This document shows, in pieces, positions 8,022-23,132 of a stretch of DNA of 64,000 nt. Numbering within the stretch: position 1 is the stretch's first letter; every line of letters begins with the position of its first letter. The stretch lies in contig JAHXIQ010000001.1 of the NCBI GenBank assembly GCA_025655555.1, positions 62,001 through 126,000 of the forward strand, given 5' to 3'. The notes below the pieces were generated by a model. That model was not told the DNA's origin, did not search any database, and worked only from the letters and a program-made list of their open reading frames with translations. The position numbers and the translations under genes are program-made. The stretch comes from Candidatus Thiodiazotropha sp. (ex Myrtea sp. 'scaly one' KF741663) (GTDB lineage: Bacteria > Pseudomonadota > Gammaproteobacteria > Chromatiales > Chromatiaceae).

Positions 8022-8492
8022 ATGCGAATAAAGATCAATCAGACAGAATACGATATTCATGTAGACTCCGACACCCCATTGCTATGGGTTTTACGGGACC
8101 ATTTGAATCTCACAGGTACAAAGTACGGCTGCGGTATCGGTACTTGTGGCAGTTGTACGGTCCTGGTAGATGGGAATCCTGTGAGGTCTTGTATCACCCC
8201 CGTTTCCAACTTTGATGGTAAAGAGATTATTACTATCGAAGGTCTCTCCCCGGATAACAGTCACCCAGTCCAACAGGCCTGGGAGACTTTGCAGGTACCC
8301 CAGTGCGGTTACTGTCAATCCGGCCAGATCCTCTCCGCCATTGCATTGTTGAATAAGAAAATTGACCCATCCGATAGCGATATCGACCAAGCCATGTCCG
8401 GTGTTATCTGCCGCTGCGGCACTTATCCCCGTATCCGCAAGGCGATCAAGCAGGCTGCTGCCAGCTTACGTCTGATTGGTGAAACCCCATGA
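8022..8492 (+). CDS. Molybdenum hydroxylase 2Fe-2S subunit (IorA type)
   Basis: The 156-residue protein has the two [2Fe-2S] domains of xanthine oxidase-family small subunits. A plant-ferredoxin-type cluster uses Cys37, Cys42, Cys45 and Cys57. A C-terminal helical cluster domain has CGYC and CRCG motifs. It resembles isoquinoline 1-oxidoreductase alpha subunit and related dehydrogenases that lack a FAD subunit and pass electrons to cytochrome c. Its last four bases (ATGA) overlap the start of the large-subunit gene, indicating translational coupling. The substrate is not predictable; family members oxidise aldehydes or N-heterocycles. Confidence 0.9.
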
Positions 8493-10618
8493 AGCCCTTT
8501 AGCCCGGACAGGAGAAAATTCCTAAAATTAAGTGCTGGCGTTACAGGGGCCAGTCTGGTACTCGGTATCAATTGGAGTTGTAGCAATGATGCCAATATCG
8601 ATCATACCAGTGGTACTGATGTTTTCATCCCAAATGCGTGGTTGCGGATTGACACGAAAGGTAGTGTCACGGTGCTTGTGGCCGAATCGGAGATGGGGCA
8701 AGGCCCCTTCACGCTCCTCCCCATGATGGTGGCTGAAGAACTCGAAGTCGACTGGCATCAGGTCAGGGTCGAACGCGCGCCTTTGACACCCGTCTATGGC
8801 TACCAGATGACTGGTGGCAGCAGCAGTATCCGCAAAGGCTGGGAAACACTTCGTCAGGCCGGCGCTATCACCAAGGAGATACTACGACAAGCTGCCGCCC
8901 TGTCATGGCATGTGCCCGTCTCAGAATGCCGCGCCGAGCAGGGTCAGATCAGACACATTCCATCAGATAAAACACTCACCTACGCACAACTTGTACCCCA
9001 GGCGGTTGGCGTGCAAATACCCGAAACCGCACTTCTCAAGGAGCCTGAGGAGTTCCACATCATTGGCACGCCGGCACCGAGACTGGATACCCCGGAGAAA
9101 ATCAATGGCAAGGCACGGTTTGGTATCGATATCAAACTGCCCGGCATGGTCTACGCCACCATCACCCATTGCCCGGTTTTTGGTGGTAAGCCAAAAAATA
9201 TCGATGCAGAAAAGACCCGACAGATTAAAGGTGTACTTGATGTCTTCTCAATCGATGAGGGGGTTGTTGTCCTTGCCAAAGACACTTGGACTGCTTTTAA
9301 GGGCAAAGCCGCTCTACAAATAGATTGGGACTTTGGTGACAAGCAATCTCTATCCAGTGACTCAATCATCAAGACACTTGAAGCATTACATATTGATGAA
9401 ACGACAGAGATCGTCAAACAGGGCACCCCTGATAATCTGCTCGATGAGAAAAGTATCAAGAGTCGATATACCTTACCGTTCCAGGCACACGTAACCCTGG
9501 AACCGATGAACTGCACGGCCAGTTACCAGGATGGGAAATTACGTATCTGGGCACCGACTCAATCACCCAGCGAAGCCTATGATGCAGCCAGAGCTGCCAC
9601 CCAATCGAAAATCACACGTGCGACAAACAAGATCAAATCAAAGCTCTTCGATAGCGTTGATGACTCAATTGAAATCAATACCACACTCCTAGGTGGCGGC
9701 TTCGGCAGACGGCTTGAGCAGGACTTTGTCTCAGAAGCCGCTCAAATTGCTCAGCGTATCGAAAAACCTGTACAACTGACCTGGACCCGTGAAGAGGACA
9801 TACAGCACGATTTCTACCAACCTCTGACGCTGCATGAAATGCGGGGCACACTAGATGCGCGAGGTCTGCCTGTGGCTTGGCATCACACAATTAAAGGCAC
9901 CAACGCCAAGCCGGAAGGTGCAAATATTCTGCCATACGATATCCCCCATATTCGTGTCGATTTAATCGATATTGGTAAAATTCTACCTGTTGGTTACTGG
10001 CGTTCTGTACAACATGCCTACAATGCCTTTGCCGTGGAGCATTTTTTTGATGAATTGGCCCATGCGGGTAATCATGACCCCCTGGAGTTGCGCCTTCAGT
10101 TAATGTCGAAGGCAGCAAGATTAAAGAAAACCCTTGAGGTTGCCGCTGATAAAGCAGGATGGAGGCATAACTCCGATCTGTTTGGCGTTGCCTCCCATGC
10201 AGGATTCGGCAGTTATGTATCTGAAATCGTCCAACTCAAAGAACAAGGCAACAGATTAAAAATTGCGAAAATCACTTGTGTGCTGGACTGTGGCATTGTC
10301 ATCAACCCAGATATCGCAAAAGCACAAATGGAAGGATCCATCGTGTTTGGATTAACCGCAGCATTGAAATCATCCATTAAGATTAAAGATGGCCAAGTGC
10401 AACAAAGTAACTACCACAACTACCCTATTCTGAGCATGGCAGAAACACCTCCCATCGAAGTGTTTATCATCGACAGTAATGAAAATCCTGAGGGTATCGG
10501 TGAGCCGGGTGTCCCCCCTCTAGCGCCGGCCATTGCCAATGCATTATTTGCGGCAACCGGCAAACCCGTGACAGATTTACCGGTACCATTCGACAGTCAG
10601 GGGATCAAGGTCACATGA
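8489..10618 (+). CDS. Molybdenum hydroxylase large subunit, Tat-exported (IorB type)
   Basis: The 709-residue protein is the molybdopterin-binding partner of the upstream 2Fe-2S protein. A twin-arginine signal (RRKFLK at 8-13, then a hydrophobic stretch ending in a Cys) predicts folded export to the periplasm. The pterin-binding motif GGGFGRR and the motif [11 protein letters not shown] near residue 671, holding the catalytic glutamate of the family, are both intact. No FAD subunit, XdhC-type chaperone or cytochrome gene is adjacent. Isoquinoline oxidoreductases and membrane aldehyde dehydrogenases share this architecture, so the substrate stays open. Confidence 0.9.
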
Positions 10619-10692
10619 CCGCCTCATTCCACAACCCGCTCAAGGGCTTTGCGTCCGGCTCTCTCATCAAACCTAATTTCGGATGATCTGAT

Positions 10693-12642
10693 ATGTGTGG
10701 TATTGCGGGCATTATGAATTTTCGCAGTGCTGTGCCGCCAAGCAGGGCAGAATTAAAGGATATGATTGAGGCTGTCTACCACCGTGGTCCGGATGGTTAC
10801 GGCTATTTCACCAACCAAAAAGTCGGATTGGCTCATGCAAGACTCAGCATCATCGATATTACTGGTGGAGATCAACCTATTCGAAACGAGGACCAAACTA
10901 TCCAGGTGGTTTTCAATGGTGAGATCTTCAACTATTTGGAGCTTCGTAAAGCACTCATAAAACTGGGACATCGTTTTTATACTCACTCTGATACTGAAGT
11001 TATCGTCCATCTCTATGAACAATATGGGCTGGAATTTGTAGCACACCTCAACGGCCAATTCGCAATTGCCTTGTGGGACGATAACCACCAGCGACTGGTG
11101 ATCGCCCGCGACAGAGTAGGCATTCGCCCCTTGTTCTACACTGAAAATGACGGGCGGCTCTATTTTGCCTCAGAAATTAAGTCACTTTTTTCTCATCCGT
11201 CGATCCCACGAAAACTCAACCTCCGGTCACTGCAAGAAATTTTTACTTTCTGGACAACGCTTCCCCCAAACAGCCTTTTCGATGGAATCAAGACGTTACC
11301 TCCAGGTAGCATGATGATAAACGAGCGGGGAGAGAGAAAAATAATAAAATATTGGGATTGGGATTTTTCACCAGACAATGTCGACAACAACCGTTCAGCG
11401 GAAGATTGGGCAGAAGAACTGAAATCGCTCATGGTCGACTCTGTCAGGTTACAACTTCGGGCAGACGTACCCGTTGGCGCCTATTTGAGCGGTGGGCTTG
11501 ATTCATCTGTTATCACCTCTTTGATCAAAAACTTTACTGACACACCTCTACGTACCTTCTCTGTCGGATTTGATGACAAGGAGTTCGATGAGAGCCGATA
11601 TCAACAAGAACTGGTAGACTACCTAGATACACAGCACAGCCATGTTGTATGCAAACATTCCGATATTGCAAACGCCTTTCCCAAGGTCATATGGCACACC
11701 GAATCTACAATTCTCAGGACAGCACCGACACCTCTCATGCTGCTTTCCGGAGCAGTTGAAGAGGCAGGGTACAAAGTCGTACTGACTGGCGAAGGCGCTG
11801 ATGAAGTATTTGGTGGCTACGACATCTTCAAAGAGGCCAAAGTAAGACGATTTTGGAGTCATTCACCGAATTCGAAATGGCGCCCATTGATTTTGCAACG
11901 CCTATACCCTTATCTAAAACATTCACCGACTGGAAGTGGTACATTTTCCCAGAATTTCTTTCAGCAAGGCCTTGAGGATATTGATAAACCCTACTTTGCA
12001 CATATACCACGCTGGGCGACCACACAACGAGGATTACAATTTCTGTCTGATGAAGCCAAATCAGCTATTGAACAGCAGATTAGATTCGATGACATCAACA
12101 GTCTTCTGCCAAAAAACATACATCGATGGAAGCCGCTTAACCAAGACCAATATATCGAGGCGAATACACTTCTTTCTGGTTATCTTCTCAGCTCGCAAGG
12201 TGATCGTGTAGCCATGGCCAACTCTATAGAGGCAAGATTTCCTTTTCTTGATCACCGCGTCATTGAATTTGCCTCACAGCTCCCTAATCGATACAAAATT
12301 ATGGGGCTCAACGAAAAATACATGCTAAAGAAGGCAATGCTGGGATTAATACCTGACCGGATTAGGAATCGTAGTAAACAGCCTTACCGCGCTCCAGATA
12401 GCCAGTCATTTATTATTGACGGAAAGCCGATAGATTATGTGGCATATCTTTTAAGTGAAGAGCGAATTAGACACTCAGGGTACTTCAATCCAAAAGCTGT
12501 CTCCTTGCTTTTGAAAAAATGCATAAAAGGAAGAGCGGTGGGATTTGCTGACAACATGGCATTTGTTGGGATTCTATCAACCATGCTTGTGGATGAGATG
12601 TTCTTATCTGAGCAAAAGCCATGTGCCATGGATTTTCCATGA
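10693..12642 (+). CDS. AsnB-type glutamine-dependent amidotransferase
   Basis: The 649-residue protein has an N-terminal class II glutaminase domain starting MCGIAGIMNF, with the nucleophile Cys2 exposed after Met removal. The C-terminal synthetase domain has the PP-loop SGGLDSS from residue 266 and a later TGEGADEVFGGY. It therefore uses glutamine as ammonia donor and ATP to activate a carboxylate. True asparagine synthetase is possible, but the neighbours (stand-alone ACP, acyl ligase, NadE-like synthetase) make a pathway-specific amidotransferase more likely. Similar proteins occur in exopolysaccharide/exosortase-linked and natural-product loci. It begins the AT-rich island, whose codon use differs visibly from the upstream genes. 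Confidence 0.88.
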   Translation: MCGIAGIMNFRSAVPPSRAELKDMIEAVYHRGPDGYGYFTNQKVGLAHARLSIIDITGGDQPIRNEDQTIQVVFNGEIFNYLELRKALIKLGHRFYTHSDTEVIVHLYEQYGLEFVAHLNGQFAIALWDDNHQRLVIARDRVGIRPLFYTENDGRLYFASEIKSLFSHPSIPRKLNLRSLQEIFTFWTTLPPNSLFDGIKTLPPGSMMINERGERKIIKYWDWDFSPDNVDNNRSAEDWAEELKSLMVDSVRLQLRADVPVGAYLSGGLDSSVITSLIKNFTDTPLRTFSVGFDDKEFDESRYQQELVDYLDTQHSHVVCKHSDIANAFPKVIWHTESTILRTAPTPLMLLSGAVEEAGYKVVLTGEGADEVFGGYDIFKEAKVRRFWSHSPNSKWRPLILQRLYPYLKHSPTGSGTFSQNFFQQGLEDIDKPYFAHIPRWATTQRGLQFLSDEAKSAIEQQIRFDDINSLLPKNIHRWKPLNQDQYIEANTLLSGYLLSSQGDRVAMANSIEARFPFLDHRVIEFASQLPNRYKIMGLNEKYMLKKAMLGLIPDRIRNRSKQPYRAPDSQSFIIDGKPIDYVAYLLSEERIRHSGYFNPKAVSLLLKKCIKGRAVGFADNMAFVGILSTMLVDEMFLSEQKPCAMDFP

Positions 12643-12781
12643 TGATTTACATAAAATGTATTTATTGTTCTTCAATATAAATCAGATTAAATATTTAGGG
12701 GATTCGGCCGAAATACATGTCAATACCATAATATCGGCCAATAGACAGTACTGAAAGTAATCGAATAAGGCGTTTCAACTC

Positions 12782-13027
12782 ATGTCCGTAGAAGCAAAAA
12801 TCAGAAATTACATCCTAGAGAATTACCTCTTTTCCGACGATCAAGCGTTACTCAACAGCAAAGACTCATTTCTTGAAAAGGGAATTTTAGACTCGACAGG
12901 CATTCTTGAAGTCATTTATTTCCTTGAAGAAGACTTTAAAATTAAGATCGATGATGAAGAGATGATCCCTGAAAATCTTGACTCTGTGAACAACATAGTT
13001 AATTTTATCGAGCATAAATCTGCCTGA
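12782..13027 (+). CDS. Stand-alone acyl carrier protein
   Basis: The 81-residue acidic protein has the carrier-protein motif ILDSTGILE, with Ser38 as the expected phosphopantetheine site. It is not housekeeping AcpP, whose motif is DSLDTVE. The next gene encodes an AMP-forming ligase 16 bases downstream, which probably loads this carrier with a small carboxylic or amino acid. The gene follows a 139-base AT-rich spacer after the amidotransferase gene. Carrier-plus-ligase pairs of this kind appear in exosortase-associated and natural-product clusters. Confidence 0.88.
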   Translation: MSVEAKIRNYILENYLFSDDQALLNSKDSFLEKGILDSTGILEVIYFLEEDFKIKIDDEEMIPENLDSVNNIVNFIEHKSA

Positions 13028-13043
13028 AATGCTACTTTTGTAA

Positions 13044-14555
13044 ATGTTACTTCTCAATAGGTTTAAGGGTGTCGTTGCCAGTCAGCCTGATGCAATTGCC
13101 GTCAAGCAGGGTGATAATTCATTCTCCTATAGAGAACTTAACCGCACAGCATCCAGCGTTGCATGGCATCTCCAAGATCTTGGAATTTCACAGGGAGATA
13201 GAGTCGCACTAGTCTTACCAAACTCATTCGAGTACATCGCTGTTTTTTATGGAATCTGGCTTTCAGGTGGCATAACAGTTGCGCTCAATACCCAAGCCAA
13301 GGCTTCTGATATCAGTAACTGGGTAGAGCATTCAGATGCAGAGTATTTATTCATTGAAGAGAATCACCCTGAGCTGGGTGTGCTAGATGAGCTGATAAAA
13401 ACAGATGTCACTATTGTTCCAGTGAATTGCAGCGCTTCGTCTTCACATTCTGGGCACTCAACCACTTGGCATAAAATAGTCAATGGGAATTTTGAAAACG
13501 ATTACTCTCCTCCGAGTAGAGATGATGTTGCTTCTATAATCTATACATCTGGTACATCAGGAAGCCCCAAAGGGGTCACACTGACTCATGGCAACCTTAA
13601 CTCTAATATAGATTCTATTCTTGGTTATTTATCACTGTCGAGTCGGGATAGTATTGTAAATGTCCTGCCGTTTTTCTACTCATACGGCAATTCAATACTT
13701 CACACTCACCTCGTGGTCGGCGCAAGGTTAGTACTGGAAAACAGCTTACTTTACCCACATCGAGTAGTTGAGCTGATTACAAATGAATCCGTTACAGGCT
13801 TTTCCGGTGTGCCTTCTACCTACTCATTAATTCTTGCAAGAGTAAAACTCGAAGAGTTTAGTTTTCCATCACTCCGATATATGACACAGGCAGGAGGACC
13901 CATGTCGCCTACGCTAAGCGACAAGATTCTTACCGCTCTGCCTAATATTGATTTTTTCATCATGTACGGACAAACCGAGGCAACAGCAAGATTAACCTAT
14001 CTTCCGCCAAAAATGTTACGCAAAAAAAGAGGATCTGTTGGGATACCTATTCCAGGGGTTACGATAGAAATAAAAAACAAGAATAACAAAAATGTTTCCG
14101 TAGGCGAGACGGGTGAAATATACGCCAAGGGAGATAATATTATGCGTGGTTACTGGAAAGATGAGTCAAGCACTCTCAGTACACTCAGAGAGGGGTGGCT
14201 ACATACCGGAGATCTTGCGCATTATGATTCAGATGGTTATCTCTATATAGATGGCAGATCATCAGACATGATAAAAACGGGTGGCAATCGTATAAGTCCG
14301 AAAGAGATTGAAGAAGTCATTCAGGAACTCGATGGTGTAGAAGAAGTTGCTGTTGTAGGCTTACAGGACGATATACTGGGAGAGGTTATTAAAGCTTTTA
14401 TCATACCTACACCGAAGTCTGGATTGAAAGAAATGGCGGTTCGCCGCCACTGTAAGGATAATCTTGCGAACTATAAAATACCAAAATCTATCGAGTTTAT
14501 TAAAACTCTACCAAAAACCGCCTCAGGAAAAATCAAGAGATTTTTACTGAAATGA
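13044..14555 (+). CDS. AMP-forming acyl/amino acid ligase (ANL superfamily)
   Basis: The 503-residue enzyme shows the full adenylation motif set: A3 IIYTSGTSGSPKG from residue 165, A5 YGQTEATARL, A7 GWLHTGDLAHYDSDGYLYID, A8 at the hinge GRSSDMIKTGGNRISPKEIEE, and the catalytic lysine in PKTASGKIKR near the end. It activates a carboxylate with ATP and transfers it to CoA or a carrier thiol. The ACP gene next to it suggests the carrier as acceptor. It resembles the acyl-CoA ligases of exosortase A-linked loci. The substrate cannot be read reliably by eye. Confidence 0.88.
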   Translation: MLLLNRFKGVVASQPDAIAVKQGDNSFSYRELNRTASSVAWHLQDLGISQGDRVALVLPNSFEYIAVFYGIWLSGGITVALNTQAKASDISNWVEHSDAEYLFIEENHPELGVLDELIKTDVTIVPVNCSASSSHSGHSTTWHKIVNGNFENDYSPPSRDDVASIIYTSGTSGSPKGVTLTHGNLNSNIDSILGYLSLSSRDSIVNVLPFFYSYGNSILHTHLVVGARLVLENSLLYPHRVVELITNESVTGFSGVPSTYSLILARVKLEEFSFPSLRYMTQAGGPMSPTLSDKILTALPNIDFFIMYGQTEATARLTYLPPKMLRKKRGSVGIPIPGVTIEIKNKNNKNVSVGETGEIYAKGDNIMRGYWKDESSTLSTLREGWLHTGDLAHYDSDGYLYIDGRSSDMIKTGGNRISPKEIEEVIQELDGVEEVAVVGLQDDILGEVIKAFIIPTPKSGLKEMAVRRHCKDNLANYKIPKSIEFIKTLPKTASGKIKRFLLK

Positions 14556-14604
14556 AAATAAAGAAAACTGGTCATTAGATTTAAACGCCGGAGGGGAATG
14601 ATTT

Positions 14605-15603
14605 ATGAACACACTACTTAAACAATACACCAATGAAATTATTAATTTTGATTGTGAGGGAGAAATTAATAAGATCTGCTCCACAATGCGTGAAGTGATG
14701 CGCAATAAGCTTCGTCGCAGGGGTGTTGTTGTTGCTGTTTCCGGCGGTATCGACAGCACTGTGTGCGCGGCACTGAGTGTCAAAGCATTCGGACCTGGTA
14801 AGGTTTTTCTTCTCCAGCTACCTGAAGTCGATTCAGCAGGTGAAACACAAGATAGAAGCACCATCTTAATAAATCATCTTAAAGCGCCTCACATCAAAAA
14901 CAATATTGCCGACACATTAGAAGCAATAGGTTGTTATTCAGCCAGAGATGACGCTATCCGATCAACATTTCCTGAATATACTGACGGATGGAAAAATAAA
15001 ATCGTAATCAAGGGCGGACTTGATGGGCAAATAAACCACTTCATTCTTGTTGTGCAAAGTCCTGATGGTGGGATATTCGAAAAAAGACTTAATATTAAAG
15101 AATACCTTCAAATCGTAGCAGCGACCAATTACAAACAGAGAATTAGAAAAACAATTGAATACTACCATGCCGACCGATTGAATTATGCGGTAGTTGGAAC
15201 CCCTAATCGACTTGAATATGATCAGGGTTTTTTTGTGAAAAATGGTGATGGTTCTGCTGATCTCAAACCGATTGCACATCTCTATAAAACCCAGGTATAT
15301 GCATTGGCGCGCGCACTTGGGGTTCCCGAGACCGTCTGCAATGCTATCCCCACAACTGATACATATAGCCTCCCTCAAGGCCAAGACGAGTTTTATTTTG
15401 CCCTTGAATACAAGAAAATGGATCAGGCCTTGTGGGCATATAATGTTGGTGCCTCTGCTCAATCATTAGCAGATATGCTAGAAATTGACCTAAAGCAAGC
15501 TGAATACATTTACAATGATATCGAAACAAAAAGAGTTACAACGCAATACTTACACTTTAGCCCGTTTCTGATGGAGCTGATGCCTGAAATCAAACACAAC
15601 TGA
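14605..15603 (+). CDS. NadE-like ATP-dependent amide synthetase
   Basis: The 332-residue protein has the adenine-nucleotide alpha-hydrolase fold of NAD synthetase. The PP-loop SGGIDS lies at 46-51, and the NadE-like core GDGSADLKPIAHLYKTQVYALAR is followed by TTDTYSLPQGQDEF. It lacks the glutaminase domain of large NadE proteins. An insert of roughly 50-70 residues between the P-loop and the core differs from E. coli NadE. NadE normally amidates nicotinate adenine dinucleotide. Here, next to an amidotransferase, ACP and ligase, I infer a pathway-specific amide-forming role. A strong SD (GGAGGGG) precedes the ATG. Confidence 0.82.
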   Translation: MNTLLKQYTNEIINFDCEGEINKICSTMREVMRNKLRRRGVVVAVSGGIDSTVCAALSVKAFGPGKVFLLQLPEVDSAGETQDRSTILINHLKAPHIKNNIADTLEAIGCYSARDDAIRSTFPEYTDGWKNKIVIKGGLDGQINHFILVVQSPDGGIFEKRLNIKEYLQIVAATNYKQRIRKTIEYYHADRLNYAVVGTPNRLEYDQGFFVKNGDGSADLKPIAHLYKTQVYALARALGVPETVCNAIPTTDTYSLPQGQDEFYFALEYKKMDQALWAYNVGASAQSLADMLEIDLKQAEYIYNDIETKRVTTQYLHFSPFLMELMPEIKHN

Positions 15604-15611
15604 CTTATCTT

Positions 15612-16667
15612 ATGAAGTACTCTGTAGCACAGGTTGATATTCTTAAGGAAAAAGAAGCTATCATCAATTTCTGGAATGAAAACAATCAAAAGAAACTAAA
15701 CGAGAAGTTCTCATGGATTTATGAATCCAATCCAGATGGATCTGCGAATGTGTGGTTACTTACTGACAATGAATCATCAGACATTGTCGGTATGGTTACT
15801 CTTTTTCCGCGTAATTTTGAATATTCAGGAAAAACCTACAGAGCAGGTATTTTGGGTGATTTCTACATCCAAAAATATCATCGATCATTTGGGCCTGCTC
15901 TTATGCTCATAAGGACAGTAACTGAATCTTTTGAAACCCTTAACTTCGATTTTATTTATGGCTTTCCAAATACCAGTGCAACCCCTGTATTAAGACGTGC
16001 AGGATTCACCCAACTCGGCCGACTGGTAAAATATGTTCGTCTTTTTAATATTGAAAGATTACTTCAAAGTAAAATTATAAACTCAACGATTATTACTCAA
16101 TTAATATCTATATTTGCTAAACCATTTATCTCACTTCTTTACCCAGACACCTGGAACTATAACTACGGGCGATATAATTTTAGTGTCTCCAATAGTATTC
16201 ATTTAGGCATAAATGACTTGATTGATAACTATAATGAAACATGCTTTAGCACTCAAAAGTCATATAAATATCTAAACTGGAAATATGAGCAGGACCCGGA
16301 CGACGATAATATTTTTTTTAACATGTTTGATAAACATGAGAAGTGTATAGGTTGTGTTGTCTTCCGCCTAGATTCAAATACCGTTGAGATCAGAGAGCTT
16401 ATACACACTGATAATCCCCGACAAACAGCAGATCTTTTGTCTGGATTTTTTAAATACGTGAAAAGAAAAAAAGCTGAATACGCATATCTGATTCCTTATG
16501 AAAATAGCTGCATACTATCTCTTGTCAGCGATCTTCAGTTATCACGAGGCGACAGATTTGGCGCAATAGTATTCCTTACTAATAAGCAGAAGGATTTTAA
16601 CGGAGAAATCACGAAGCTACTTACTGCTTCTAAAATCAATTTATATCTTACAGATCAGGACACTTAA
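15612..16667 (+). CDS. GNAT-like N-acyltransferase
   Basis: The 351-residue protein has a GNAT-type core in its first half, with IVGMVTLFPRNF (central strands) and AGILGDFYIQKYHRSFGPALMLIR resembling the acyl-CoA binding region. FIYGFPNTSATPVLRRAGFTQLG follows, a pattern typical of acetyltransferases. The C-terminal half repeats some of these features (YAYLIPYENSCILSLVSDLQ), suggesting a double GNAT fold as in FemAB-like proteins. It is the last gene of the plus-strand arm, 8 bases after the NadE-like gene. It may acylate the pathway product. No closer assignment is possible by eye. Confidence 0.7.
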   Translation: MKYSVAQVDILKEKEAIINFWNENNQKKLNEKFSWIYESNPDGSANVWLLTDNESSDIVGMVTLFPRNFEYSGKTYRAGILGDFYIQKYHRSFGPALMLIRTVTESFETLNFDFIYGFPNTSATPVLRRAGFTQLGRLVKYVRLFNIERLLQSKIINSTIITQLISIFAKPFISLLYPDTWNYNYGRYNFSVSNSIHLGINDLIDNYNETCFSTQKSYKYLNWKYEQDPDDDNIFFNMFDKHEKCIGCVVFRLDSNTVEIRELIHTDNPRQTADLLSGFFKYVKRKKAEYAYLIPYENSCILSLVSDLQLSRGDRFGAIVFLTNKQKDFNGEITKLLTASKINLYLTDQDT

Positions 16668-16806
16668 CTTGCTGCCAGACAAATGACGCCATACTAATTA
16701 AAGAACGTAGATTATGAAATATGATCGATAATTTATCATCATATAGCAACGCTGATAGCTTTTATCAGGAATTTTACCTAAAAACATAATTAACTAGCAT
16801 CACTAC

Positions 16807-18249
16807 TTAATTGTTTTTGAAAAAAACACCATTCTCACACGCTAACAATCTGCTATATTCTTCAACTTCCTTGTCAGTTGCATATATTGAAAAATAATTA
16901 GTTAACCTTGCTAACAACTTCATCCTAGTTATTTTATCTATTTGCGCTTTTTTTCTTTGGTAATCCAGCTCTTGCCCCTGAAACCTGGTTAAATCAGTCT
17001 GTAATGAAACAAGAGTAGGATAGTCTTTGTGTTTCTGTATGTAACTGGAAACCGTCTCAATATCTTTATTCAAAGTAGATATATAAGACAATGTATAAGG
17101 ATGGAACAGTTCGGGCCAGTACTTTTTAATATCGAGCTTTATTGAAGAAGATACTTCCTCAATATTCTCCTCCGTTTTCTGTTGTAATTGTTTTATGTTA
17201 ACAATATTTTCTTGGATCTCACTTTTCATATTTTTCAACAGTTGCCTATCCATACCCAAATCATGCTTACTCGCTAAATATTCTGCGATGCTCCAGTAAA
17301 TACTTTTTTCATCTTCATTGCCTGACGACCATCTAAGGTACCATGGCGTCCATTCTTCTAGGTACATCTCACTGGATGATCTTGATAAATCCTTGCTCTC
17401 ACCTACCATTAACGCATAAATATGTGACTCTCGGTAAGAAACAGAACCATCATTATTAATATCAACGGAAACTGGCAGCTCCTGTCCATTTCTAGTTGCA
17501 CCATTTAGGGGAGCAAAAAAGTATGTGGAGTAATCCCTGTATTCTTCTTTGTTTGTATTGAGCGAGCACCCCTCGGATTGATCGTAGGGAGATTCCGCAA
17601 AAAATCCACACCTATTTTGCTTTGCCAATTCATTTGACTCTGGGTCTTCATAAATCAAATGGTAGAATCCGCCTGAATAACACTGTGGAAAAACAAACCT
17701 GATCAATGACTCTGCGTGAGCACTGTCAAGAATTCCATCAACTTCTCCGACATCTAATTTCTCATCACCCCATACCTTTATTGTATTGTATCGAACGTCA
17801 TCTTCATTGAGATCTCCGTGACCATTAAATACGATAAGTATTTCACTCTCTTTGTCTGTAGCATTAAGCAAGTTAAGAATTGACTTTGACAGCTCGTCTT
17901 TTCTTGTCGAGCCAGACAACTCTGGTACTCCATTAATTTTAAATCTGAGTCGATGTGCATCGCCAAAGTCAAATACCCGTGATAAAGGCTGCATTAAATC
18001 CGTAGAATCGGTATCGTCAAAGAAAGCAACATCCTTCTCTTCTGTATTACCAGCCGCATAATAATTTTTTATTGTATTACTTGATTTTTTCAAAATTTTA
18101 CTTAGCCACTCGACATTATCCTCTATTTGCCCTTGTGAATTACTGATTGTATTCCCACCTCCTACTTGAATTATCACTGACGAATCGGCGTGAATACTTT
18201 TCGCCAAAGAAAATAAGAGCAAAAAAAGCAATAAATACTTAGCCATCAT
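16807..18249 (-). CDS. Secreted caspase-like (clan CD) protein with EF-hand loop
   Basis: The 480-residue product starts with a signal peptide (hydrophobic 4-16, probable cleavage near HADSS). It shows the clan CD catalytic pair: His144 in FNGHGD and Cys190 in FVFPQCYSGGF. These fit the caspase/legumain/gingipain fold. At 263-274 the loop DINNDGSVSYRE has the acidic/polar spacing of a calcium-binding EF-hand. Residues from about 325 to the end are helical with likely coiled coil. It overlaps the upstream small membrane-protein gene by 11 bases. Target and activation are unknown; calcium-triggered processing is only a guess. Base composition is AT-rich like the rest of the island. Confidence 0.75.
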   Translation of the reverse strand: MMAKYLLLFLLLFSLAKSIHADSSVIIQVGGGNTISNSQGQIEDNVEWLSKILKKSSNTIKNYYAAGNTEEKDVAFFDDTDSTDLMQPLSRVFDFGDAHRLRFKINGVPELSGSTRKDELSKSILNLLNATDKESEILIVFNGHGDLNEDDVRYNTIKVWGDEKLDVGEVDGILDSAHAESLIRFVFPQCYSGGFYHLIYEDPESNELAKQNRCGFFAESPYDQSEGCSLNTNKEEYRDYSTYFFAPLNGATRNGQELPVSVDINNDGSVSYRESHIYALMVGESKDLSRSSSEMYLEEWTPWYLRWSSGNEDEKSIYWSIAEYLASKHDLGMDRQLLKNMKSEIQENIVNIKQLQQKTEENIEEVSSSIKLDIKKYWPELFHPYTLSYISTLNKDIETVSSYIQKHKDYPTLVSLQTDLTRFQGQELDYQRKKAQIDKITRMKLLARLTNYFSIYATDKEVEEYSRLLACENGVFFKNN

Positions 18250-18634
18250 TATTGCTCCAATCTATTAAAATTGCTGGTAACGCAGCAATCGCTATGATTA
18301 ATCCAAGTATAGTCGGTATCATTGACGACATAAGGACAGCAGCAAAAACAAAAATAATAGCTAGCAGTAGAATTGGCAGCCCAAGTGGTTTTGGCAAGTA
18401 CTTTCTACAGATTATAAAAAAGAGCACAGTAGGCAAAATCACGAAAAAAGAATTAAGCCAATCAACCAAAACAATCTTTAAAAGTCTTCTTTTGGATTCG
18501 TACAGATAATAGTCTACTAAGGCACTATCACCCAGGAGATAGTCCCACATCATCTGGACACACAGTGAAACAGGATAAGCAAGAAGTACAATCAACCCTA
18601 GCCATAACCATCTACTGTTAATTGAATAATTCAT
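18239..18634 (-). CDS. Small integral membrane protein of unknown function
   Basis: The 131-residue protein has about four hydrophobic helices (roughly 9-27, 57-75, 81-100 and 102-124) and a short soluble loop after the first. I do not recognise the family. It overlaps the caspase-like gene by 11 bases and follows the carbamoyltransferase gene by 9 bases, so all three probably share one transcript. It may be a membrane partner of the exported caspase-like protein, which is inferred from position only. Confidence 0.65.
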   Translation of the reverse strand: MNYSINSRWLWLGLIVLLAYPVSLCVQMMWDYLLGDSALVDYYLYESKRRLLKIVLVDWLNSFFVILPTVLFFIICRKYLPKPLGLPILLLAIIFVFAAVLMSSMIPTILGLIIAIAALPAILIDWSNNDG

Positions 18635-18643
18635 TACTCAAAA

Positions 18644-20338
18644 TTATTTTTTAACTATAAAATCATCGATAACAAGAACATCTAGACCAGTTGAAAAAAA
18701 GCATCTGATAGCATGTAGTGGTGATTCAACTATAGGCTCTCCCATAATATTAAAACTCGTATTTAATAAAACAGGTATACCCGAGAGCTTACCAAATTCT
18801 GTAATCAATTGATGATATCGCTGATTAGTCTCTTTTTTAACAGTTTGCAACCTCGCCGATCCGTCAACGTGGGTTATAGCCGGAATGAGATCTTTTTTAT
18901 CCTCCTTTACATCGCAAACTTTTAGCATAAAAGGTGCTTCAACTTCGATATCAAAAAACTCATCTTTAGCTTCAACCGTAGCAGATGGCGCAAATGGTCG
19001 GTATGCCTCCCTGTGCTTAACCTCAGCATTAATCTTGTCTTTCATACCATCAAGCGTTGGATCCGCTAAAATGCTTCTATTTCCGAGTGCTCTTGGGCCT
19101 ATCTCCATCCGTCCTTGAAACCACCCTATAATATTTCCGGATCGAAGCATCTCTGCAGTCTCCTTGCAGACGTCTTTTGACTCTTTAAAAGGAAGTTTGC
19201 ATTCTTCCAATATACGCCTGATATCTTCCTTGAGATAATGGTTACCAACATAAGGATTGCTATGAAAGAATCGTTTCTTATTACCAAGTATTTCATGATG
19301 CACGTAATAAGCAGCACCAATAGAGGTACCATTGTCACCAGCCGCCGGCATCACATAAAGGTCCTTAAATCGAGTCTCTCTTAAAATCCTACCATTCATA
19401 ACGCTATTTAATGAAACACCTCCAGCAAGCACAATATGTTCGGCTTTCGTCTTTTTCTCTAGATACCTGCATATTTGTAACACTTTATCTTCAAGCACCT
19501 TTTGAAATGCAGCAGCCACATCGTGGTGGTGATCAAGAAACTCACCATCATTTTTCCTTGGTTTACCAAATGTACTGTAGAACTTGTCAGAACATCGACG
19601 TCGACTCCAGTTCTGGTAGTTAAAGTAAGAGAGATCAATCGTAACGGTGGCATCATCATTAACCGTAACTATTTTGTCGACTATATTGTAAAAACGACTC
19701 GGGTCTCCAAAGGGTGCTAACCCCATGGTTTTACCCTCATCATAATTAGGTCTGAAGCCGCAGAACTCAGTTGCTGCCTCATAAAAAGAACCTAATGAGT
19801 GAGGAAACATCGTCTCAGAATATTTCTCTATGGAACCTTTACTTGCCTCGCCTACAAACAGGGTCGACCATTCGCCAGAACCATCAAGCGATAACAATGC
19901 CGCATCTTCATAAGGGGATAAGAAGTATGTACCCGCTATGTGTGACATATGATGCTCAACAAAGTGAACTGTCGGTTTATTGTTGTTACGAGTAAACGAT
20001 TCATACCACTTATTAAAATCCCGCAACTTAAAAATAGTGCCTTTTAACTCATGTGAAATAAATGGCCCCATTTTTAGACCCAGTGATAGGCAATATACTA
20101 ATTTTTTAAACCAGTGCTTAGAAGGCTTTATAGAGACTGCAATATGATCAATTTCACTCGGATCAATATCTGCATATTTCAAACATTGCTCTATTGCATT
20201 ATTAGGAAATTGGTGTGAGTGTTTTTTACGGGTAAAGCGCTCTTCCTCTAGAGCAACAATCAGTTCACCATCTTTCAAGAGGCATGCTGATGAGTCATGA
20301 AAAAAGTAGTTAACGCCAAGAATAATCATGAAATGCAT
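18644..20338 (-). CDS. Carbamoyltransferase (NodU/CmcH/TobZ family)
   Basis: The 564-residue protein has both family domains. The N-terminal Kae1-like domain has HHMSH at 129-133, LLSLDGSGEW and DEGKTMGLAPFG. The C-terminal YrdC-like domain contains WFQGRMEIGPRALGNRSILA. These enzymes make carbamoyl-adenylate from carbamoyl phosphate and ATP and transfer the carbamoyl group to a hydroxyl of a sugar or antibiotic. ATG at 20329 is a plausible alternative start, because GGAG lies about 10 bases before it and the family usually starts near ILGVNYFFHDSS. It sits 16 bases after the FemAB-like gene. No sugar-building genes lie beside it, so the acceptor is unknown. Confidence 0.92.
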   Translation of the reverse strand: MHFMIILGVNYFFHDSSACLLKDGELIVALEEERFTRKKHSHQFPNNAIEQCLKYADIDPSEIDHIAVSIKPSKHWFKKLVYCLSLGLKMGPFISHELKGTIFKLRDFNKWYESFTRNNNKPTVHFVEHHMSHIAGTYFLSPYEDAALLSLDGSGEWSTLFVGEASKGSIEKYSETMFPHSLGSFYEAATEFCGFRPNYDEGKTMGLAPFGDPSRFYNIVDKIVTVNDDATVTIDLSYFNYQNWSRRRCSDKFYSTFGKPRKNDGEFLDHHHDVAAAFQKVLEDKVLQICRYLEKKTKAEHIVLAGGVSLNSVMNGRILRETRFKDLYVMPAAGDNGTSIGAAYYVHHEILGNKKRFFHSNPYVGNHYLKEDIRRILEECKLPFKESKDVCKETAEMLRSGNIIGWFQGRMEIGPRALGNRSILADPTLDGMKDKINAEVKHREAYRPFAPSATVEAKDEFFDIEVEAPFMLKVCDVKEDKKDLIPAITHVDGSARLQTVKKETNQRYHQLITEFGKLSGIPVLLNTSFNIMGEPIVESPLHAIRCFFSTGLDVLVIDDFIVKK

Positions 20339-20354
20339 ACTCCATTCAGAAAAA

Positions 20355-21458
20355 TCATTTTAATAACCCTCTCACTTTTTTCTTTGAGTGTAAGAAAGCT
20401 TTAGCTAATCGACCTCTGGTACCAGAGTTAAAATATTGAACGCAATAGACAGGCCGTTTATTTAAGTGCCACCTGTCGGCCCATTCCGGCGCCGTCACCA
20501 AATTCACCTCAGCCATACTATTATCCATACTTGTATCTTCAAGAAACTTCAACATTAACAGGTTGCCGACACCGTAGCTTTTTAAACTTTCTTGATAAGC
20601 AACTTTCAGGATATACCATGTATTTCTTAACTTGATACACAACTGGCCAGCAGCCGCCTGTCCACTAATGTTAAGAATATTAATTTGAATTGACCTGTCA
20701 GTTGAAAATTGGACTAACAGCTCTTTGTAAAAAGAAACCAATTCAGGATGATACTTGATTGCAGTAGATGTACCTTCCTCTCCTTTCCATCCTGAAGCTT
20801 CAATATCGAAAAATGTTTCACACGCTTCTTCAAGGAAACCTGCACTATTGACAAAACTTACCTCGAGTGCTCCCTTTTCTTTTTCTGCCCGCTTACCCAG
20901 TCTCCTAATATTTTTTATAAATTTCTTTGACAAATTTTCATCAAATTTCCCTGAAGGCCAATCAAAGTAAGCGCTCTCACTCTTAGTCGAGAAATGCGCA
21001 TCACTCTCCTGAATGATTCCCAGGAAATCAGATTTGCTGCTTATTTTATCTATCAGAAGATGACTCCACTGAATACCTTTTTTCTGGGTAAAATAGTCTA
21101 TGGCTCGTCGGACATCATTTTTTGTGGCCAACTCTGAATTTAAAAGCACATCAGAATGTGCACTATGTTTATGTGCAGGCAAGCTGATTATCTGGTTACG
21201 AATATTAAAACCATTCGAATGATTTAGTTGCAATGGCAGGATAAGAACAACTTCACCGTGTTTATGTAACACAATAAAATAAAGCGGTACCTCGATAAGC
21301 CATTTTTGAAGTGCGTACATCCATCGCCACTCGAGAAAATACGTAGGGTTATCCATACCTGCAAAGAGCTTATCCCATGAGTCTCTTATTGCCTCAAGCC
21401 CTTCAATCCCTTCAAAAATTGAAATTTCCTGCAGCTGGATATCATTATTCTGCCCCAT
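20355..21458 (-). CDS. FemAB/BioF2-like GNAT acyltransferase
   Basis: The 367-residue protein fits the Acetyltransf_6 (BioF2-like) family related to FemAB. The N-terminal part reads WDKLFAGMDNPTYFLEWRWMYAL. A central stretch holds KKFIKNIRRLGKRAEK, and the second GNAT half has AAGQLCIKLRNTWYILKVAYQESLKSYGVGNLLML. The conserved WADRWHLNKR near the C-terminus is typical. Relatives occur in polysaccharide and exosortase loci and probably acylate sugars or amino groups. It opens the minus-strand arm of the island; about 800 bases of non-coding DNA lie upstream. Confidence 0.82.
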   Translation of the reverse strand: MGQNNDIQLQEISIFEGIEGLEAIRDSWDKLFAGMDNPTYFLEWRWMYALQKWLIEVPLYFIVLHKHGEVVLILPLQLNHSNGFNIRNQIISLPAHKHSAHSDVLLNSELATKNDVRRAIDYFTQKKGIQWSHLLIDKISSKSDFLGIIQESDAHFSTKSESAYFDWPSGKFDENLSKKFIKNIRRLGKRAEKEKGALEVSFVNSAGFLEEACETFFDIEASGWKGEEGTSTAIKYHPELVSFYKELLVQFSTDRSIQINILNISGQAAAGQLCIKLRNTWYILKVAYQESLKSYGVGNLLMLKFLEDTSMDNSMAEVNLVTAPEWADRWHLNKRPVYCVQYFNSGTRGRLAKAFLHSKKKVRGLLK

Positions 21459-22253
21459 ACCCCCACCTTTGATAGTCTTTCCCCAATTTCGGGAAAGAGA
21501 TCCCCCTGTTAATAAACCCAGTCAATCTCAGTATCTCGTCATGTCTAACATGAAGGGTTAAACAAAATTCTAATTATTCTTCAGCACTCGGATTTGACTT
21601 TAATTACTCTTCCTATCAGTACTTTAAATCGTGCTCATGACTTCTCAAATCATTATGCAGTACCCTATAGCAGCACAAAATAGTTATTTTTTTGTGTGTA
21701 TTATTCGTACAGTGATACTAAGGCGCTTATGAGTAAAAGCATTTTAATTATATTTTTCAATCCCTCATGCCATTATCTCAACACCCATATCAATAGCAAT
21801 CTAGGAGGATACCACTCATGGAATAGCTTCCTAATTCACGAGCTAACCTAGAAAGCGAGAATACTTGAACAACATCATTCCGCTCATCAAGAGTTATACC
21901 ATTATAGGTTACAAATCAATATCTTAATAATACTGGAAAGCACATACTCTCAATTCAGGAGCCTATGACTCACAACAATCAAGGTATCTAAAGTCTAGAA
22001 GAAGATATTTATCGAATTGGTAAGAATGATAACAATCACAGATTCATTACCATTGACATCAGAAGTGTTTTGAATCGTTAAAATCTTAGAATAGTTTAAA
22101 TATCTATACTTTCATCGTACGCATATTCCCCTACAAAACACTTTAGAAGTGTCGGTTTCTAGCACGCCAAACATCCTATAAAACAGATGTAAATCAACCC
22201 TGAGCCCAATAGGGAAAACTAAGCCTGTTAAAAAAACCTCATTCAGTTAATTC
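21459..22253. other. AT-rich non-coding stretch at the end of the accessory island
   Basis: No frame longer than about 60 codons exists in 795 bases. The best short frame (21729-21851, 40 codons) has no good ribosome site. The stretch presumably holds the promoter of the minus-strand arm, near 21459-21600. Otherwise it looks like decayed DNA at the island boundary. I see no tRNA, obvious direct repeats or transposon ends. Confidence 0.5.
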
Positions 22254-23132
22254 TCATACTTGCAGCGCCTGGGTAGCAACATGGAAAACCCTTGTTTCTT
22301 CATCAGACCAACCGACTTGGTGCCGTCCAAGCGAGGTTCTGTCCAATTTAGCACTTAGTTTTCCGAGAGTAGTCAGTCCCTCATCATAACCTTTCCACAT
22401 CACAATTAGTTTTTCGATCAGGGAGAGGTAGCGAATTCCCTCCATCTCAGCATCAAGTGAGTAAACATGCCCATTAGGCAAAATATACTGGCTTTCAGAA
22501 TAGAGATATTCATGTGCATTTTCAGCTGTAACATCACCACCTCTCAGCATCAGATCACTAAGCGTGGGGAGCGTAGTCGGCAGCTGAGGACAATCTGATT
22601 CTACGCCTTGAAGCACGGGATAAAATGCCGTTTTACCTCTCACATCGCTGGTATATTCAAAATCCAACTTTTGTTCCAGTTCCAATAAATGAGGATTTAG
22701 CTGCCAACCAGGAGCAGCGAAGGCTTGCGGTCTTTTAAGAAAAACCGATTCATACGCCTCAACTGCCAGCATCATCTGCTGCTGGGTCCAGGTCTCATCG
22801 GCGAAGGCCGCCTTGCTAACCCATGCGACACGATCGTAGCCCAGCAGTCCTGTTTCGTGCCCGGCGGCAGCTGCGGATCTCATGACCTCTGATGCTCGTC
22901 GCGAGATATGGGGTGGCAGCAACAAGGTGCCATAGAGCCGGGAACTGAATTTTAGATGCGACCGCCAGGGCTGTAAGGCACTCCGCCCAAACAGTTGCCC
23001 ACTCCGATCCGGCCCCATGGCGAAAAAGAATGAGGCCTGAACCTGATACTCATCAAACAACCGCAAAAGATTCGGCACACCTTCAAGTGCACCCTGTAGG
23101 GTATTGACACAGATTCTCAAACCAATATTCAT
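22254..23132 (-). CDS. ArnD-like NodB-fold protein lacking catalytic residues
   Basis: The 292-residue protein aligns along its length with ArnD (deformylase for undecaprenyl-phosphate 4-formamido-arabinose): GLRICVNTLQGALEGVPNLL at the start, PTTLPTLSDLM and DAEMEGIRY later. The active-site residues are changed, however. The E. coli RIDVDT is RICVNT (Cys8 and Asn10 for the two Asp). GLHAWDHHAW is GLLGYDRVAW (Leu97, Arg101, Val102 for His). HAEVEG is DAEMEG. Metal binding and the general base are therefore lost, so it is probably a non-catalytic or repurposed paralogue. The start overlaps the end of trhP by 4 bases. The E. coli sequence is recalled from memory. Confidence 0.75.
   Translation of the reverse strand: MNIGLRICVNTLQGALEGVPNLLRLFDEYQVQASFFFAMGPDRSGQLFGRSALQPWRSHLKFSSRLYGTLLLPPHISRRASEVMRSAAAAGHETGLLGYDRVAWVSKAAFADETWTQQQMMLAVEAYESVFLKRPQAFAAPGWQLNPHLLELEQKLDFEYTSDVRGKTAFYPVLQGVESDCPQLPTTLPTLSDLMLRGGDVTAENAHEYLYSESQYILPNGHVYSLDAEMEGIRYLSLIEKLIVMWKGYDEGLTTLGKLSAKLDRTSLGRHQVGWSDEETRVFHVATQALQV

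Follow-up and report, generated by a model that had tools for sequence, protein, structure and literature searches.

The subject of this analysis is the segment 10693-21458 of a 64,000-nucleotide stretch of Candidatus Thiodiazotropha sp. DNA (contig JAHXIQ010000001.1; the whole stretch is called the window below). The main finding is that its plus-strand genes belong to a module that is conserved and repeated across many Proteobacteria. This module combines an AsnB-type amidotransferase, an acyl carrier protein (ACP), an AMP-forming ligase and a NadE-like amide synthetase, often with a GNAT acyltransferase, and its conservation, gene order, synteny and coupling of ligase flavour to a methyltransferase were all observed directly. 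We propose, as a reading that falls somewhat short of an even chance, that the genes at 10693-16667 load an acid on the ACP, amidate it and transfer it to an acceptor, probably a surface glycan. The acid would be an amino acid where the ligase has Asp at one key column (D-type) and a non-amino acid in S-type loci such as the window. The initial annotation had described the segment as a single island; instead, it consists of two units, A (10693-16667, plus strand) and B (16807-21458, minus strand), each of which was found without the other.

Conservation of the AsnB-ACP-ligase-NadE module

Two sets of genomes were searched. The first was an even draw of 369 gammaproteobacterial genomes (the class draw), in which matches over the cut-off of NF002048, the model of the NadE-like subfamily, were counted. 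The second was a scan of named genomes, which gave at least 405 loci with NadE relatives, mostly in Proteobacteria and also on rhizobial plasmids; the best 80 by NadE similarity were examined and are not a random sample. All fetched module loci together number 101, several of them short.

NF002048 was over its cut-off in 17 of the 369 class-draw genomes, the window's included, and in 13 of these AsnB, ACP and ligase all lay near NadE. Each of the 16 other loci had at least one of the three partners within ~1.5 kb. In wider windows, all three were found within 5.5 kb of NadE in 12 of the 16, with ACP present in 16, AsnB in 14 and ligase in 13. None of the 13 fetched loci with a NadE-family match below the cut-off had such partners; one of them (G137) holds a broken module-type NadE, and its row, which has none of the three partners, was left out of the 16-locus counts. 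Among the best 80 named-genome loci, 53 had all three partners (ACP in 70, ligase in 69, AsnB in 58), and a GNAT-family protein was present anywhere in the locus in 38 and directly after NadE in 23. The question of whether the plus-strand genes are kept together elsewhere, which the initial annotation had raised, was answered by these neighbourhoods: AsnB, ACP, ligase and NadE (the core) form a conserved set, and GNAT is a frequent fifth member.

The core, with a GNAT-family match in the locus, was also found in all four rhizobial plasmid loci examined (two of Mesorhizobium, one each of Nitratireductor and Sinorhizobium), where the genes carry the annotations asparagine synthase and NAD synthase. 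The Nitratireductor module adjoins TniB/TniQ-type transposition genes. No description of the enzyme set was recognised among the matches listed from the open-licence literature.

Three further observations concern individual loci. Three Luteimonas loci (L119, L122, L132) read AsnB-ACP-PrmC-NadE-GNAT; no ligase was detected within them, and it may be encoded elsewhere. NadE-type genes on contigs labelled Planctomycetes, Caldithrix and Latescibacterota (L113, L131, L135) had no detected module partner, and the L135 sequence begins 1.8 kb before NadE. Within ~6 kb of NadE, six loci (L077 by direct test; L097, L076, L081, L066 and L067 by clustering) encode a KAS III-type protein (ACP_syn_III), possibly another user of the carrier-bound acyl group.

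The history of the core was followed in the nearest relatives. A genome of the same genus (G350, locus L048) and four lucinid-symbiont or Chromatiales genomes (L056-L059) have AsnB, ACP, ligase and NadE at the same site with conserved flanks, and in the AsnB, ligase and NadE trees these five and the window form one group (support 1.0, 0.996 and 0.971). In the four relatives measured (L048, L056, L057, L059), the GC content of AsnB, ligase and NadE is about that of the flanks, and only the small ACP gene is lower. The shared site, the ordinary GC in relatives and the congruent trees point to vertical inheritance of the core four genes. In the window, gene GC across the segment is 0.35-0.45 versus 0.522 for the remainder, so the AT-richness noted in the initial annotation is real. 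Since the core has ordinary GC in relatives, however, the AT-richness is lineage-specific and no sign of a newly acquired module; the lineage developed it, or received it by exchange, along with unit B. GC was also seen to drop stepwise from the left flank to the segment middle within 8489-23132, where one right-flank gene is low as well; some of the low-GC genes have orthologues of ordinary GC in relatives.

GNAT and the four minus-strand genes were not found at that site in L048 and L056-L059. A genome of another genus in the same family (G386) has the five plus-strand genes together. Therefore, GNAT may be an old module member that the near relatives lost; alternatively, it may have been gained in the window lineage. 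By eye, the G386 module adjoins an iron-sulphur/molybdopterin-type oxidoreductase pair resembling the pair at 8022-10618 of the window. A first genome scan with the window GNAT as query gave no match, and the protein has no solved homologue by sequence at E up to 1.

Ligase types and the putative amide pathway

The NadE-like protein passed the cut-offs of NF002048 (451.5 bits versus 313) and of the NadE family model TIGR00552 (140 bits versus 63.65). It shares with ammonia-dependent NadE the SGGxDS motif and a conserved C-terminal half; excerpts of PMC3376133 describe single-domain NadE as ammonia-dependent and give the motif as SGGxDST. Unlike ordinary NadE, it has a constant ACP partner and ~53 extra residues (108-160) that ordinary NadE does not match, and in this segment C110, Y111, R114, D115, W129 and K132 are invariant in 16 aligned sequences. 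On contig C2, where weak family matches fell, a two-domain NAD synthetase ORF was recognised by eye, so the window protein comes from a second NadE-family gene. A phage origin was considered and rejected, as 31 phage records match but none covers 80% of the protein.

The closest solved chain to the window AsnB is the hydroxyamidotransferase 7ylz. The enzyme class is common to the module and to the hydroxamate or amide pathways of actinonin and matlystatin (ActJ/MatC). According to the portions of PMC5719088 consulted here, AsnB-like enzymes act there in the pathway to a succinamic-acid-type warhead group, and the clusters carry N-oxygenase and carboxylase/mutase genes. By Pfam, none of the nine proteins of the segment is an N-oxygenase or a carboxylase/mutase. 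The best solved matches of the ACP are peptidyl carrier proteins (2my5, PigG). As in the L-prolyl carrier systems (PltL, PigG) and DltA/DltC, to whose carriers the ACP is nearest, the module pairs a ligase with a separate carrier. Unlike these systems, it has two amide synthetases, and the window ligase has Ser, not Asp, at the amino-acid-binding column. DltB (MBOAT) and DltD domains were not found among the nine proteins of the segment by Pfam.

The ligases were typed by this single column. It is Asp, mostly within LAFDYGLY, in 23 single-type loci and Ser, Ala, Gly, Asn or Thr in 57, and it aligns with the Asp of a non-ribosomal peptide synthetase (NRPS) A domain. A PrmC-type (N5-glutamine) methyltransferase was found by profile search in 24 of the 101 loci, always within ~4.2 kb of NadE; its gene separates ligase from NadE, closely follows NadE or adjoins the ligase, and the proteins tested score around the PrmC model cut-off, some over and some under. 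It was present in 20 of the 23 D-type loci versus 0 of the 57 others (Fisher p 5e-16, relatedness ignored). The five loci with both ligase kinds have none, and four PrmC loci without a classified ligase lie outside this comparison. The D-type loci fall into nine groups on the NadE tree, seven with PrmC. Those without PrmC are S. medicae WSM419 and two D-type loci that stop 0.9 and 1.8 kb beyond NadE. In S. medicae ml29, a PrmC-type gene stands together with a GNAT ~10 kb from the module (L154 22043-23883); this pair adjoins a gene annotated as lipopolysaccharide biosynthesis. In another locus (L041 3140-6733), D-type and S-type ligases were seen close together.

A D-type ligase matched NRPS A domains best and also matched an L-prolyl carrier ligase. 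Judged by their residues, the D-type ligases probably take an alpha-amino acid (Glu or Asp, for example), and the S/A/G-type ligases, including the window's, probably take a non-amino acid. Reading the substrate from specificity residues, as the initial annotation had suggested, therefore narrowed the type, since the amino-acid-binding Asp is missing, but did not name the substrate. Since PrmC follows the ligase type, the amide appears to be tied to the ligase substrate, and the presence of an amide methyltransferase in 24 of the 101 loci strengthens the amide reading.

In the pathway proposed here, the ligase would adenylate a carboxylic acid and load it on the dedicated carrier protein, as its family suggests. 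AsnB would draw on glutamine and the NadE-like enzyme on ammonia to turn the free carboxyl group or groups into carboxamides; neither enzyme is assigned to a particular site. The window GNAT would then take the finished acyl group off the carrier and attach it to an amine or hydroxyl, which from the context probably belongs to an amino sugar in an exported glycan; loci without GNAT may use other acyltransferases. In D-type loci the PrmC-type enzyme would N-methylate the amide, and in S/A/G-type loci no methylation would take place. The broader claim is a little more doubtful than the pathway itself. It holds that this is a widespread pathway in which a NAD-synthetase relative was recruited with AsnB to make carboxamide acyl groups of surface glycans, in two interchangeable flavours, one built from an amino acid and N-methylated by a relative of release-factor methyltransferases, likewise recruited, and the other non-amino and unmethylated.

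If this is true, genes annotated as asparagine and NAD synthases encode enzymes that decorate a glycan or small molecule in an undescribed way, a NAD synthetase relative and a PrmC relative have both been put to work on new substrates, and the type of substrate can be foretold from the ligase sequence by its flavour. The ligase-methyltransferase coupling makes the proposed pathway directly testable.

Polysaccharide context and competing explanations

The initial annotation had noted a resemblance to exosortase A (XrtA)-linked loci. The enzyme classes are indeed those of the accessory enzymes of XrtA/PEP-CTERM exopolysaccharide (EPS) loci, namely the TIGR03108 amidotransferase and the TIGR03098 ligase, and the module often lies among XrtA-type EPS genes. 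The window proteins, however, stay below the family cut-offs. AsnB scored 451.8 bits with TIGR03108 (cut-off 816.9), the ligase 353.5 bits with TIGR03098 (cut-off 592.35), and the FemAB-like protein of unit B had no TIGR03019 match at 1e-3, so membership of these families was rejected. Four module AsnBs (412-442 bits) and four module ligases (400-458 bits) from other loci also fell below the respective cut-offs. Unlike the XrtA accessory enzymes, the module adds the NadE-like protein, often GNAT and sometimes the PrmC-type protein, and it also stands alone.

At least two of eight XrtA-EPS markers were found in 10 of the 16 class-draw loci and 18 of the 80 named loci, and an EPS marker in none of the four plasmid loci. 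When seven markers were tested at module loci, TIGR03006, TIGR03019 and TIGR03027 passed their cut-offs; the rest are sub-cut-off best matches. By hand counts, any exosortase match was present in 12 of the 17 NadE-type genomes versus 105 of the 352 others (p 9e-4), with no enrichment over the XrtA cut-off (4/17 versus 68/352, p 0.75). In excerpts of PMC9012009, two asparagine synthetase genes are mentioned for the floc-formation EPS cluster of Zoogloea and Aquincola. An exosortase/PEP-CTERM system was also sought elsewhere in the window's own genome and was found: one exosortase match, of 173.6 bits and so under the XrtA cut-off of 208, at C6:109073-109849, and eight PEP-CTERM matches over cut-off. 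By eye, the exosortase has PrsK/PrsR-like (histidine-kinase, response-regulator), export and kinase genes as neighbours. The 54 kb surrounding the exosortase (C6:80000-134000) gave no match to any window gene at 1e-4, and no gene of this genome is over the TIGR03108 cut-off.

Several points weigh against the carrier-bound amide pathway. Its substrate, product and acceptor are unproven proposals. In the class draw, GNAT was present in only one of the 16 intact loci (L044, directly after NadE) plus the broken G137 locus, and PrmC in two of the 16 (L043, L046); the 80 loci selected by NadE similarity thus have both much more often. The five nearest relatives have no GNAT beside the module, and G350 has none in its entire genome. 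In 11 of the 80 and 3 of the 16 loci, no ligase was detected close to NadE, and in 6 of the 80 no module partner was detected; four of these six start at a contig end or close to one (NadE within 2 kb of the locus start). As many as 38 of the 80 named loci, several of them short, are without any of 14 EPS markers. The role given to the Asp that separates the ligase types is the one it has in NRPS enzymes, where it binds the alpha-amino group. In the 20/23 versus 0/57 comparison, counting clades controls for relatedness only in part. Finally, the C-terminal half of the NadE-like protein keeps residues aligned with ordinary NadE, so NAD synthesis by this protein is possible.

The last point bears on two other explanations. 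One is that the NadE-like protein is a spare ammonia-dependent NAD synthetase among an ordinary set of EPS accessory genes. The NCBIfam name, NAD(+) synthase, and the retained residues agree with this, but the two-domain NadE ORF elsewhere in the genome, the invariant residues of the subfamily segment and the ACP linkage in all 16 class-draw loci make it very unlikely. The other is that AsnB and/or the NadE-like protein amidate a nucleotide-linked uronic acid, with the ligase, ACP and acyltransferase separately acylating the same glycan. AsnB-type uronamide synthases occur in O-antigen loci, part of the module loci have EPS context, and the conserved NadE-matching half would suit such a reaction, since the normal substrate of NadE is also a carboxylate on a dinucleotide. 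This explanation is unlikely, though not to the same extent: no partner is as constant as the carrier protein (16/16 and 70/80), PrmC tracks the ligase type and so ties the amide to the ligase substrate, and the four plasmid loci have no EPS marker.

Equally unlikely is a small soluble product, an acylated amino-acid or dipeptide amide acting as compatible solute or signal like N-acetylglutaminylglutamine amide. That synthesis has AsnB-type terminal amidation in common with the module, and a PrmC-type enzyme fits a Gln-like amide; the annotated neighbours of the plasmid cores also include no glycan genes. However, the window AsnB scored 384.7 bits with the amidotransferase model TIGR03104, whose cut-off is 570.1, the module differs from that synthesis by its carrier protein and ligase, and EPS linkage was seen in 10 of the 16 class-draw loci. 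The initial annotation itself had favoured one pathway in which the nine genes amidate and carbamoylate a carrier-bound acid. The genes are adjacent in the window, and one metagenomic locus (L070) has a carbamoyltransferase convergent with the module. By homology, though, this was the only one among the 101 fetched loci, several of which are short; the nearest relatives carry the core at the same site without unit B, and unit B occurs without adjoining unit A in L139 and L140. Amidation is therefore kept as the best reading, carbamoylation is no longer placed in this pathway because the carbamoyltransferase, small membrane and caspase-like genes occur without the amide module, and the nine-gene version is the least probable of the explanations, with hardly any chance of being right.

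The minus-strand unit and the gene layout

Since it occurs without the amide module, unit B is a separate unit and no part of the amide pathway. In two genomes, G395 (L139) and G418 (L140), the FemAB-like, carbamoyltransferase and caspase-like genes are in the same order as in the window, and the carbamoyltransferases are 61-62% identical to the window's. G418 has no NadE over cut-off, and G395 has the module on another contig. The caspase-like gene was found at 15 other loci, in 2 of 56 other family genomes and 13 of 368 other class-draw genomes. A carbamoyltransferase lies within ~1.5 kb of it in seven of these (L139, L140, L146, L148-L151), and all seven have a small membrane gene between the two, by homology in L139 and as a hydrophobic ORF recognised by eye in the other six. 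A FemAB-like gene was present in 4 of the 15 (L139, L140, L150, L151), of which only L139 and L140 were fetched wide. In L140, unit B apparently stands among polysaccharide genes, as judged by eye.

In the caspase-like protein, GHG (H144) and QC (C190) are invariant in 15 aligned sequences. No plasmid homologues of it were found, and no solved homologue by sequence at E up to 5. A sortase-like or glycan-linking role for unit B is an open guess.

The nine genes are listed in Table 1. All are intact ORFs, and the genes named in the initial annotation were confirmed with their families; the caspase-like and small membrane proteins had been overlooked. As also stated there, no PKS, NRPS or glycosyltransferase domains were found among the nine proteins by Pfam.

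Table 1. Genes of the segment 10693-21458 of the window
Gene product	Position	Strand	Remarks
AsnB-type glutamine-dependent amidotransferase, unit A	10693..12642	+	glutaminase with Cys2 (by eye) and synthetase half
ACP/type II carrier protein, unit A	12782..13027	+	DS-type phosphopantetheine site (by eye)
AMP-forming ligase, stand-alone, S-type, unit A	13044..14555	+	motif FFYSYGNS
NadE-like amide synthetase, NF002048/PRK00876 subfamily, unit A	14605..15603	+	SGGIDST intact
GNAT acyltransferase (Acetyltransf_9), unit A	15612..16667	+	Pfam; module membership frequent, not constant
Caspase-like (clan CD-like) protein, unit B	16807..18249	-	signal-peptide-like start (by eye)
Small hydrophobic membrane protein, unit B	18239..18634	-	
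NodU/CmcH-type carbamoyltransferase, unit B	18644..20338	-	family match
FemAB-like acyltransferase (Acetyltransf_6), unit B	20355..21458	-	family match

The five plus-strand genes and the four minus-strand genes are convergent. Promoter-like (31) and terminator-like (10) sites were about as frequent as in shuffles (33.2 and 8.2), and none of the nine proteins matched an anti-phage defence family of PADLOC at E 0.01. The genes of each unit are closely spaced. The gaps from AsnB through ACP, ligase and NadE to GNAT are 139, 16, 49 and 8 bases, and those from FemAB through carbamoyltransferase and small membrane gene to the caspase-like gene are 16 and 9 bases, followed by an 11-base overlap. In the conserved right flank, the gene at 22254-23132 has a weak polysaccharide-deacetylase match (22.5 bits versus a cut-off of 23.1).

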